Source of the DNA: Candidatus Vecturithrix granuli
GTDB lineage: Bacteria > Moduliflexota > Moduliflexia > Moduliflexales > Moduliflexaceae
Assembly: GCA_000739535.1 (NCBI GenBank)
Contig: DF820473.1
Location: 73,441 to 122,361, forward strand
DNA length: 48,921 nt
Direction: 5' to 3'
The notes beneath the pieces are model-generated. The model was not told the origin of the DNA, ran no database searches, and was given only the letters and a program-made list of their open reading frames with translations. Shown here one piece after another: positions 18,825 to 47,534 of this stretch. A program made the position numbers and the translations under genes. Within the stretch, counting starts at the first letter, position 1, and each line of letters starts with the position of its first letter.

Positions 18825-18874
18825 ACGCCTATTTTCAAAGGAGTTCATACGAATGGATTATGCGCCCGGCACAA

Positions 18875-19105
18875 TGAAACTACAAGGATTTCGTGTAATG
18901 GTGAGATGGTAAGTGATGCGTCCCCTGAGCGAAGGCGAAGGAAACAATGAGCGGCTCGTTTCGACTTCGCTCAACGAGCGGGCATCACTTACCATTTAAC
19001 CACTACCGGATTTCGTGTAGGAAGGATGCTCAGAGGCAGGGGTCGGCGTCACGCCAACCAATTCGCCGTTAAGAATCCTTCCTACACGAAATCCTTGTAG
19101 TTTCA
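18875..19105. repeat. Hairpin-array unit 2 (locus A), interrupted by a MITE
   Basis: The left arm is split: its first 20 bases are at 18875-18894 and the next 11 at 19017-19027. Joined, they are the exact complement of the 31-base right arm at 19075-19105 (ending CCTTGTAGTTTCA). The interruption is the 113-bp element plus one 9-bp duplication. AAAGGAGTTAACATGA follows the right arm. Confidence 0.9.
18895..19007 (+). mobile_element. 113-bp MITE-like element, complete copy with 9-bp target duplication
   Basis: The element begins GTAATGGTGAGATGGTAAGT and ends CATTTAACCACTACC, forming imperfect terminal inverted repeats of about 25 bp, and has an inner palindrome based on GAGCGAAG and CTTCGCTC. 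The 9-mer GGATTTCGT occurs immediately on both sides (18886-18894 and 19008-19016). It encodes no protein. Excision in silico restores a perfect host palindrome, which proves insertion rather than chance similarity. The mobilising transposase is not in the window; a 9-bp duplication is compatible with several IS families. Confidence 0.92.
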
Positions 19106-19150
19106 AAGGAGTTAACATGATCTGACGCTCACCCGACGTAATGAACATAC

Positions 19151-19216
19151 GATGTAGCGCGAAACTCCAGTTTCGCGGCGGTCAACCATGCGCGAAACTG
19201 GAGTTTCGCGCTACAT
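19151..19216. repeat. Hairpin-array unit 3 (locus A)
   Basis: Arms at 19151-19177 (GATGTAGCGCGAAACTCCAG...) and 19191-19216 (...TTTCGCGCTACAT) pair almost perfectly over about 25 bp, with a 13-nt loop. TTTTCATAGGAG follows. The stem is nearly identical to the unit at 46503-46567. Confidence 0.9.
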
Positions 19217-19313
19217 TTTCATAGGAGAAATAGCTTGTGTTGTAAGGTGAATTTTGACGGGTCCGTAGTCTCGGCTTCAATCGGAAACTCAAGCGAGTAC
19301 TACGAGCCTGTTG

Positions 19314-44673: not shown

Positions 44674-46056
44674 GTGAGTGAGCGAATCCGAATCAAAGAC
44701 GCTTTGCAAAGCGCCGCCCCTCTTGATCGTATTGTCATCAAAGGATGGGTGCGCACAAAACGTGACGCCAAAGGGTTTTCTTTTTTGGAAGTCAATGATG
44801 GGTCGTGTTTGACCAACATTCAGATTATTATAGATGAAAAGGCTGCGGGGTTTGACGAATTGAAACTGATCCATACCGGAGCAGCGGTCGCTGTGATCGG
44901 AAAATTGGCTGAATCTCCCGGAAAAGGGCAGAAATGGGAAGTTCATGCAACAGAACTCCAGCTTGTCGGCGCGGCCGATCCCGAAACCTATCCGTTGCAG
45001 AAAAAACGTCATTCCGATGAATTTTTGCGCACGATTGCGCATTTACGCCCGCGCACTAATAAATATGGCGCGATTTTCCGCATCCGTTCTGAAAGCGCGT
45101 TTGCAATCCATCAATTTTTCCATGAACGCGGCTTTGTGTATGTCCATACCCCGATTCTCACCGGCTCAGACTGTGAAGGCGCAGGCGAGATGTTCAGAGT
45201 GACAACCTTGCCGCCCGGATATACGAAAACCGGAGAAGGGATGTATGAGGAAGATTTTTTTGGAAAAGAGGCGAACCTGACAGTTTCCGGTCAACTGGAA
45301 GGAGAAGCCTATGCCTGCTCTCTTGATCGGATTTATACCTTTGGCCCTACTTTTCGCGCCGAAAATTCCAACACGCCGCGCCATGCCGCCGAGTTCTGGA
45401 TGATCGAGCCGGAATTTGCCTTTGCTGATTTGAATGATAACATGGCTCTCGCCGAAGACCTGGTCAAGTATATGACAGAGTATATCCTGAACCACTGTGC
45501 GGAAGATCTGGAGTTATTTGCAAAATATGTGGATCAGACCTTGATGGGATCTCTCAATAATCTGGTCGTATCGGAATTCGTGCGTTTACCGTACCGGGAA
45601 GCTATTCAGATTTTACAACAATCAGGGCAAAAATTTGAATTTCCCGTCAATTTTGGCACCGATTTACAAACGGAACACGAACGGTTTCTTTGCGAGACCC
45701 ACTTTAACAAGCCGGTGATCGTGTATAATTTCCCCAAAACCATCAAACCTTTTTATATGCGGGTCAACGACGATAATGAGACCGTCGCAGCGATGGATGT
45801 GCTGGTACCGCGCGTGGGGGAACTGATTGGCGGCAGCCAGCGTGAAGAACGCCTGGATGTGCTCAAACAGCGTATCCAGGAGCTGGGAATGGATGAAACT
45901 CCATATTGGTGGTATCTTGATCTGCGACGATTCGGAACAGTGCCGCACTCCGGCTTTGGTCTGGGTTTTGAACGTTTTCTTATGATGGTGACAGGCGTCG
46001 CCAATATTCGCGACGTGATTCCATTTCCCAGAACTCCGAAAAGCCTTGATTTTTAG
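44674..46056 (+). CDS. asnS: Asparaginyl-tRNA synthetase
   Basis: This class IIb synthetase charges tRNA-Asn. The 460-residue protein has an N-terminal OB-fold anticodon-binding domain ([20 protein letters not shown]), motif 2 [20 protein letters not shown], and motif 3 [27 protein letters not shown]. The [10 protein letters not shown] ending and the EFWMIEPE context mark AsnS rather than AspS. The GTG start at 44674 follows AGGAGG by 6 bp, and the ATG just upstream meets an immediate stop. Presence of AsnS suggests direct Asn-tRNA formation, though GatCAB cannot be excluded. Confidence 0.97.
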
Positions 46057-46078
46057 TTCTACGTTGTCAAGCTTGTGG

Positions 46079-46161
46079 AACTCCAGGAATCACATATAGG
46101 AAAGAATAGATTTCTGCCACACCTGACATCACATTCTTTCCTATATGTGATTCCTGGAGTT
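46079..46161. repeat. Hairpin-array unit 1 (locus B)
   Basis: Perfect 29-bp arms at 46079-46107 and 46133-46161 (outer end AACTCCAGGAATC / GATTCCTGGAGTT) enclose a 25-nt loop. TTCAAAAGAGTT and ATGAGC follow. It may double as the asnS transcription end, though no T-run follows. Confidence 0.9.
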
Positions 46162-46175
46162 TCAAAAGAGTTGTG

Positions 46176-46202
46176 ATGAGCGTACGCTCACCGACGCAAT
46201 GA
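46176..46202 (+). other. Micro-ORF in a linker of the hairpin array
   Basis: ATGAGCGTACGCTCACCGAC and the following CAATGA encode MSVRSPTQ and stop, preceded by AAAAGAGTT. Linkers at 46219 and 46325 also begin ATG after GGAGTT but encode unrelated peptides, so protein function is unlikely. The linker itself forms a small stem (TGAGCG/CGCTCA). Confidence 0.35.
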
Positions 46203-46245
46203 AACTACAGGAGTTATCATGAACGGGTTATTCGCCCGGCATCAT

Positions 46246-46312
46246 GAAGCTACAGGGATTTCACATAACCAGGGATAAAAAATCCTTGCTTATGAGGAAT
46301 CCTTGTAGTTTC
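46246..46312. repeat. Hairpin-array unit 2 (locus B)
   Basis: GAAGCTACAGGGATTTC pairs with GAATCCTTGTAGTTTC, and the pairing extends to about 30 bp with roughly five mismatches around a 7-nt loop TAAAAAA. AAAGGAGTTGCTATGAGC follows. The outer arm matches unit 2 of locus A (GAAACTACAAGGATTTC). Confidence 0.82.
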
Positions 46313-46360
46313 AAAGGAGTTGCTATGAGCTTCGGCTCACTCGGCACCATGAAAATGAGA

Positions 46361-46429
46361 GATGTACCGCGAAATTCCTTTTCGCGGCCATGCCAGGCGT
46401 AGGCGCGAAAAGGAATTTCGCGCTACATT
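46361..46429. repeat. Hairpin-array unit 3 (locus B)
   Basis: GATGTACCGCGAAATTCC and the following TTTTCGCG (46361-46386) pair with CGCGAAAAGGAATTTCGCG and CTACATT (46404-46429). TTTCAAAGGAGTT follows. Confidence 0.88.
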
Positions 46430-46502
46430 TTCAAAGGAGTTATTCATTCGTTTTGGCAAACGCACCACGGCGAATGAAGATTTTCTGTTCAGAGGAGATG
46501 GG

Positions 46503-46567
46503 ATGTACCGCGAAACTCCAGTTTCGCGGCTGTCAACGAGGCGCGAAACTGGAGTTTCGCGCTACAT
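46503..46567. repeat. Hairpin-array unit 4 (locus B), adjoining the FAH start
   Basis: ATGTACCGCGAAACTCCAG at 46503 pairs with CTGGAGTTTCGCGCTACAT ending at 46567, 26-bp arms with one mismatch and a 13-nt loop. TTTTCAGGGGAGAAACT then leads directly to the ATG at 46584. The stem is nearly the same as at 19151-19216. Confidence 0.9.
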
Positions 46568-46583
46568 TTTCAGGGGAGAAACT

Positions 46584-47534
46584 ATGCGATTTGTCACATA
46601 CATTCAACAAGATCATACGAAGATTGGCGCACTTATTGATGAACACTCACTGGTAGATTTGAATCGCGGCTACCTTGACTTACTCTGTGCTCAAGGCTCT
46701 GCGGAGAAATCGCAAGAGGTGTTTGCGTCATCCCTTAAAGAATTATTGGAAGGCGGCGAAAATGCCCTGCACACAGCGCGGAAAATACTGTCGATAGCGC
46801 AAAAAGACCTGCGACGCCAGCCAGATTCAACACCTCGTCCCTGGTTAGTGTCCTTAGACGCTGTGCGTTTGATGGCCCCGATCCCGGATCCATCGAAAGT
46901 GGTGGCAATCGGGCAGAATTATCGTGACCACTGTTTGGAACAGAACGTGCCGATTCCGGATCGTCCGATTATTTTTGCCAAATTTCCGACCGCCGTGATT
47001 GGGCCGAACGAACCGATTGTCTGGGATCCGAGCCTGACAGATCAGGTAGATTTTGAAGCGGAATTAGGCGTGGTGATTGGCAAATGCGCCCGGCATGTAC
47101 CCCAGGAACAGGCCTTTGACTATATCGCCGGGTATGTGAACGGCAACGATGTTTCGGCGCGGGATCTGCAATTTAGCGACCGCCAGTGGGTACGCGGAAA
47201 ATCCTTAGATACGTTCTGCCCGATTGGACCCTATCTTGTGACTCAAGACGAAGTGCCTGATCCGCAGAATCTTGCAATTCGGGCGATTCTCAATGACGTT
47301 GTCATGCAGGATTCCAGCACGCGGCACATGATTTTTTCAGTGGCCTATTTGATCGAATTCATTACCCGCGCCTTTACCCTTCTTCCGGGTGATATTATCT
47401 TGACAGGAACACCGCATGGCGTTGGAGTGTTCCGGAATCCGAAGATTTTCATGCAACCAGGCGATACGATCACAATTGAAGTTGAACACTTAGGCGCGCT
47501 CTCAAACCCCTGTCGAGCGGAGCACGTCGAATGA
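46584..47534 (+). CDS. Fumarylacetoacetate hydrolase (FAH) family protein
   Basis: FAH-superfamily enzymes hydrolyse or decarboxylate acylpyruvates and related diketo acids. The 316-residue protein has an N-terminal domain (MRFVTYIQQDHTKIGALI) and the catalytic domain: VVAIGQNYRDHCLEQN, the metal-binding Glu pair E158/E160 in DFEAELGVVIGK, NGNDVSARDLQFSD, QWVRGKSLDTFCPIGPYL, and LLPGDIILTGTPHGVG. It could be an acylpyruvate hydrolase, oxaloacetate decarboxylase or 2-hydroxyhepta-dienedioate isomerase. The start at 46584 is set by GGGGAG and by homology, and the longer upstream frame is repeats. Its leader is the hairpin array. Confidence 0.93.
   Translation: MRFVTYIQQDHTKIGALIDEHSLVDLNRGYLDLLCAQGSAEKSQEVFASSLKELLEGGENALHTARKILSIAQKDLRRQPDSTPRPWLVSLDAVRLMAPIPDPSKVVAIGQNYRDHCLEQNVPIPDRPIIFAKFPTAVIGPNEPIVWDPSLTDQVDFEAELGVVIGKCARHVPQEQAFDYIAGYVNGNDVSARDLQFSDRQWVRGKSLDTFCPIGPYLVTQDEVPDPQNLAIRAILNDVVMQDSSTRHMIFSVAYLIEFITRAFTLLPGDIILTGTPHGVGVFRNPKIFMQPGDTITIEVEHLGALSNPCRAEHVE

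Follow-up and report, generated by a model that had tools for sequence, protein, structure and literature searches.

Hairpin and linker modules flush with Shine-Dalgarno sites in Candidatus Vecturithrix granuli, a probable family of REP/MITE-like mobile elements

GTAG REPs have been reported mainly downstream of coding regions (Di Nocera et al. 2013, PMC3733652), and Correia elements have been mapped mostly immediately upstream of genes (PMC10969869). In the giant filamentous bacteria of the Beggiatoaceae, TAACTGA direct repeats are found upstream of the start codons of unrelated genes (MacGregor 2015, PMC4679880). No repeat or insertion at Shine-Dalgarno (SD) sites was reported in the open-access full-text literature that we searched. 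Here we describe hairpin and linker modules in Candidatus Vecturithrix granuli UASB270, a member of the candidate phylum KSB3/Modulibacteria whose genome was derived from the metagenome of an anaerobic granular-sludge reactor (PMC4312070), and we think it probable that they are non-autonomous, REP/MITE-like mobile modules that enter at SD sites and lie in the same orientation as the gene.

The genome comprises 8,384,694 bases in 21 contigs, and the window, meaning the whole stretch of DNA that was analyzed, covers 48,921 nucleotides of it (contig C11, 73441-122361). Within the window, an array at 46057-46583, free of assembly gaps, fills the space between a gene ending at 46056, which we take from a reading of its sequence alone to be asparaginyl/aspartyl-tRNA-synthetase-like, and a fumarylacetoacetate hydrolase (FAH) family gene on the plus strand at 46584-47534 (316 aa; PF01557, E 3.8e-74). 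From 5' to 3' on the plus strand, the order is stem C, LK1, LK1, stem B, LK1, stem A2, LK2, stem A, GGGGAG, ATG. Palindrome C (ACTCCAGGAATCACATATAGGAAAGAAT...ATTCTTTCCTATATGTGATTCCTGGAGT, 46072-46168), from a family that recurs in the genome, lies directly 3' of the stop codon of the synthetase-like gene and has 36-nt arms that are 94% complementary. Two copies of the linker LK1 follow back to back, with a stray ACTACAGGAG at their joint (46162-46203 and 46207-46248; C11 59602-59643 and 59647-59688 in the nhmmer census, from which window positions are obtained by subtracting 13440). Palindrome B (GCTACAGGGATTTCACATAACC...ATGAGGAATCCTTGTAGTTTCA), seen in the fold at about 46247-46314, leads into a third LK1 copy that starts TCAAAGGAGTTGCTATGAGC (46311-46353; C11 59751-59793), and then comes palindrome A2 (46362-46433), a REP-dimer-like stem of the family census that ends in TTTTCA and whose inverted repeat, with 33-nt arms, spans 46362-46428. 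At the joint of A2 and LK2 there is an internal SD-like site, AAGGAG (46434-46439). LK2 (46440-46497) contains a hairpin, TTCATTCG..CGAATGAA, and ends in TTCAGAGGAG; palindrome A (46503-46572), two inverted REP-like units with 29-nt arms at 46503-46567, carries a left GTAC and a right GTAG tag and likewise ends in TTTTCA. The right end of the array, GGGGAG at 46573-46578, is the SD of the FAH gene.

An initial annotation of this region had described four long palindromes, the last of which runs straight into the FAH ribosome-binding site. Inverted-repeat search and folding recovered all four (C, B, A2 and A), and TTTTCA-GGGGAG does occupy 46567-46578, followed by the ATG at 46584. The single linker plan that it had proposed has to be replaced by four linker copies of two kinds, LK1 three times and LK2 before the last stem. 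Folded as RNA, the 554-nt array has a predicted energy of -255 kcal/mol vs -148 for shuffles (z = -19), and the FAH SD is unpaired in the centroid. As the annotation had also held, this is not a CRISPR array, an attC array or an ordinary terminator: the window had no hit to an Rfam model at gathering thresholds, and no terminator-like site was found inside the array, where the tail is TTTTCA. CRISPR, an attC array and a riboswitch are all unsupported by Rfam, the terminator scan and the reading of the sequence. The FAH gene has as its longest open frame 46362-47534, which crosses A2, LK2 and A (MYREIPFRGHARRRREKEFRATFSKE...); stems and linkers extend open frames in this manner, and false N-terminal extensions are likely in the annotation of Vecturithrix genes.

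The census covered 2.03 Mb (all 1.15 Mb of C21, together with 0.8 Mb from C20 and 80 kb from C11), with genes called by a home-made hexamer model (83-85% coding), so that the placement fractions given below are approximate. Profile searches found 229 modules in 130 arrays. On C21, inverted repeats of the size class of the array number 182, vs 1 in a third-order Markov control sequence, and this excess, together with the recurrence of the modules, excludes chance. The right end of stem A, TTTCGCGCTACATTTTCANNGGAG with GGAG included, has 263 matches in the whole genome at up to 3 mismatches and none with the reversed pattern as a control, and TTTCA-N-R-GGAG occurs 98 times in the 2.03 Mb, vs 16-21 in fourth-order Markov sequence. 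Scaffold gaps (runs of N) adjoin stem A copies at C20 ~590224-590997 and at C21 ~544500, 907800, 1000500 and 1129700, so longer or more homogeneous copies may be missing from the assembly. The genome also has many further, unrelated palindrome families (for example on C21 at 51610, 161657, 730903 and 946319; L021-L078), among them AAAACCGGGTTTCTT, GGTAGTGGTTA, TTCGTAGT..ACTACGAA, GTACCCCGGACATCC and GTTGTTTCGGGAA, several of which likewise end in TATTTTCAAAGGAG.

The modules are LK1 (about 43 nt, built as TCAAAGGAGTTNNCATGAGC-4 nt-GCTCACCCGRCRCAATGAA), LK2 (58 nt, with a hairpin) and several palindromes. Stem A consists of a pair of inverted units, both of them palindromes in their own right (CGCGAAACTCCAGTTTCGCG) with a TGTA-type tag alongside. 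Of 57 full copies, 49 have GTAG as the right tag; as the left tag, 31 have GTAC and 21 have GTAG. The inner symmetry of stem A is absent from the long hairpins of stems B to E. All stems usually end in TTTCA, and stem identity is freely shuffled from locus to locus. A second array in the window (18839-19227, plus strand) is composed of an LK1-like linker, an interrupted stem D, LK1 and A. Its stem D, uninterrupted in the copies elsewhere, is split by a palindrome of the GGTAGTGGTTA.. type flanked by the 12-nt direct repeat GGATTTCGTGTA, which indicates the insertion of one palindrome family into another, accompanied by target duplication.

Covariation, which had been suggested as a check of the hairpins, is present in some modules only. 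The arms of stem A covary, with 9 pairs showing double changes in one length class and 8 in another, counts that 0/500 shuffles reached, and the outer stem of LK2 changes from U-A to G-C in five copies, a modest test because these copies are closely related. No compensatory change was found among the copies of the LK1 mini-stem. Frames opened by the LK1 ATG run for 2-196 codons with no conserved length, often as ATG-AGC-stop (stop at codon 3 in 16/64 scored copies), and on this ground an LK1 mini-cistron or leader peptide was rejected; downstream genes start from their own start codons and not from linker ATGs. Thus the idea of a cassette family that brings its own translation start stands for the family, which is dispersed and has variable stems and common linkers, but not for the start, since the linker ATGs are unconserved and the units end in an SD GGAG.

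Placement was scored on the 72 arrays that end in stem A, leaving out those cut by gaps. These arrays lie in sense orientation, 1-2 nt upstream of the SD GGAG: a same-strand gene is ahead of 63/72, and GGA is found within 10 nt of the right end in 61/72. An in-frame start follows at 6-30 nt in 47/72, vs 4.9% of random intergenic points and strands (binomial p about 1e-43). A gene start is reached from 44 of the 61 GGA-abutting arrays (72%), whereas SDs make up only 21% of the GGAG in intergenic DNA (p about 2e-17). The spacing from GGAG to start is native-like, averaging 7.5 nt with an array vs 8.0 nt in native sites. Palindromes B-E alone, without linkers or A, served as an internal control and had GGA in 6/40 and a start in 8/40. 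At operon junctions, 23 arrays begin no more than 30 nt past the stop codon of the preceding gene. A minority of arrays have no gene ahead, such as the second array at 18839-19227, which has no gene start downstream. The eight downstream genes that we examined each fall into a different family, unrelated to the others (FAH, HbpS-like, dehydroquinase, YGGT, 2-hydroxyacid dehydrogenase, STAS, sugar/branched-chain permease and aconitase C-terminal domain), which argues against a regulon.

The right end of the element reads TTTTCA-N-[A/G]-GGAG and directly adjoins the native SD-to-ATG spacer in genes that are unrelated to one another. Linker-bearing arrays start with GGAG-TTNNCATGA or GGAG-TTATTCAT, and the bases 5' of this GGAG are locus-specific. 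At C21:609254 the left AAGGAG overlaps the stop codon of a gamma-glutamyltranspeptidase-like gene, the last residues of which resemble the usual end of that family; given the overlap and the family-typical end of the protein, this left GGAG is probably the native one. At the other end, GG precedes the right GGAG in 8/10 LK2-A copies vs 22/522 native SDs (p about 4e-10), an excess which argues that the right end belongs to the element. In a test for terminal inverted repeats and target-site duplication of the MITE type, GGAG was the sole sequence common to both flanks, and no longer target duplication was found: the bases next to the left and right GGAG disagree, so any duplication is limited to GGAG. 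Stem A copies without a linker show no GGAG at the left end and for this reason are treated as decayed or as the product of a second insertion mode.

We compared three same-family or same-order genomes of different genera (G001, of the same family, G002 and G003). The ProC-YggT junction, which holds a stem A copy in Vecturithrix (C21:68478), is a bare stop-SD-ATG in all three relatives, with the stop followed by GGAGGTTAATCATG in G002 and G003 and by GAGGTGATGCGATG in G001. LivH and LivM nearly overlap in G001 and have a stem A copy between them in Vecturithrix (C20:139703), although the G001 match is 44% identical and may be a paralog. The G001 homologs of the FAH and hydroxyacid dehydrogenase genes have a plain AAGGAG with no hairpin. 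Array-type palindromes number 0 in 187 kb of G001, and G002 and G003 have some palindromes of other sequence. This comparison, which is across genera, indicates that the arrays are insertions and not ancestral leaders. The exact linker and right-end patterns had no match in GTDB genome contigs, the family had none in viral contigs or in the three same-family or same-order genomes, and a distant genome (G032) gave one weak 42-base match. Among the genomes searched, the multi-copy dispersed family is restricted to Vecturithrix. The search for the linkers with variable stems in the genome and its relatives that the initial annotation had called for was therefore positive in the genome (~229 modules in 2.03 Mb) and negative in the three relatives.

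Stem A resembles the dimers of GTAG REPs, or REPINs (PMC3733652, PMC3116915), in that it is made of two inverted units, each palindromic (CGCGAAACT-CC-AGTTTCGCG) with a TGTAG-type tag, and the family resembles them in being species-specific, intergenic and present in hundreds of copies, as in the 263 right-end matches. In contrast to these REPs, the arrays lie just upstream of SDs and not at gene 3' ends, are nearly always sense-oriented, couple stem A to two further linker modules and have GTAC oftener than GTAG as the left tag. The tagged inverted dimer is a feature of stem A only, not of stems B-E or the linkers, and none of the ten Y1_Tnp loci examined has a RAYT (TnpAREP) gene with these REPs on its flanks. 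In the literature searched we found no other REP-dimer-based, linker-bearing family that stands in register with SDs. MITEs, pneumococcal BOX/RUP (PMC3049150) and Correia elements (PMC10969869) are similarly short, non-autonomous, hairpin-forming, modular and clustered, with nested insertions; unlike them, the Vecturithrix modules showed no terminal inverted repeat with a clear target duplication, GGAG alone being common to the ends, the insertion point would be the SD itself, and the right end carries an SD. The Beggiatoaceae TAACTGA repeats (PMC4679880) share the abundance and the position just upstream of starts of unrelated genes, but they consist of tandem heptamers instead of hairpins and linkers and occur where canonical ribosome-binding sites are rare, whereas in Vecturithrix the SD is intact and forms the boundary of the element.

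The same facts could be read as a regulatory leader, in which conserved 5'-UTR hairpins set translation (as a standby site, by protecting the mRNA or as a switch), having multiplied by duplication and been retained by selection for their effect on the genes. This reading would agree with the sense orientation flush with the SD, with the strong predicted folds that leave the SD unpaired and with the compensatory changes in the stem A arms and the LK2 outer stem, but the downstream genes are unrelated, the hairpins are absent at the homologous genes of three relatives, the changes in the LK1 mini-stem are uncompensated, stems are shuffled freely among loci, and compensation within a palindrome may merely reflect symmetric REP architecture. 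A multi-hairpin leader controlling translation was the other suggestion of the initial annotation; with eight unrelated families downstream and relatives without hairpins at the same genes, we obtained no positive evidence for it and consider it unlikely. Assembly or binning error is far-fetched: the genome is a metagenome assembly with N gaps, several of which adjoin stem A copies, but the window array is gap-free and there are hundreds of copies with distinct flanks and sequences on all large scaffolds.

A plain, untargeted expansion of GTAG REPs or REPINs, in which copies landed anywhere and those at SDs remained through selection and because short intergenic regions are dense in SDs, would explain why stem A has REP architecture with GTAG as the predominant right tag, in a genome full of other palindrome families that has Y1_Tnp genes. 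We regard this as quite unlikely, since the right end stands in a fixed register with GGAG, which is more than mere nearness, starts follow GGA-abutting arrays far oftener than intergenic GGAG are SDs, palindromes B-E alone behave differently, and the REPs in the literature are mostly located 3' of genes (PMC3733652).

If the modules are mobile and enter at SD sites, as we think probable, a unit would join 3' of the native GGAG and bring a GGAG at its own right end. The gene would keep a working SD after insertion because the unit ends in its own GGAG. Both the leftover left GGAG and the new right one may then be targets again, and such reuse would give tandem SD-linker-stem arrays that grow by repeated insertion. 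Each stem is predicted to fold on itself, and so the SD would remain unpaired and the insertion would be nearly neutral; a selfish, nearly neutral repeat is the most economical view of function. A more specific proposal, which we make tentatively, is that the SD itself serves as the integration target of a family of mobile hairpin cassettes: insertion would use the GGAG of the gene, deliver a replacement at a workable distance and leave the old one as a target, renewing both the translation signal and the landing site.

More tentative again is the route of insertion. Short target motifs and subterminal hairpins are a hallmark of the HUH/Y1 TnpA-like class, and on this architecture we suggest that the modules may insert through a single-strand, HUH/Y1 TnpA-like route, served in trans. 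PATEs derived from IS200/IS605 would be comparable, with subterminal hairpins and short fixed left-junction and right-end sequences; in Vecturithrix the GGAG on the left adjoins native sequence, and the right end of LK2-A is a GGGGAG of its own. To our knowledge, GGAG as an SD is not a known target of the IS200/IS605 family. The genome has 12 Y1_Tnp (IS200/REP-type) matches. At the ten of these loci that we examined, taken with 1.5 kb flanks, there was neither a stem A or linker nearby nor an IS200-type transposase with matching ends; these loci have palindromes of other kinds or no palindromes. Three of the genes (L012, L013 and L014) are flanked by short palindromes of their own (GTCCCTACGGGAC, CCCCGCAGGGGC and CGCCCTGAAAGGGCG) and look like ordinary REP/RAYT pairs. 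It is possible that the transposase is hidden in an assembly gap, given that stem A copies lie beside several of the gaps.

Genomes usually tolerate mobile DNA in places where nothing matters, and the Vecturithrix family, if confirmed, does the reverse: it enters the ribosome-binding site, among the most constrained points of a gene, and leaves that site functional. This would be a new answer to the question of how repeats can build up to hundreds of copies in a genome dense with genes, and the targeting of a translation signal by a transposase would become directly testable.
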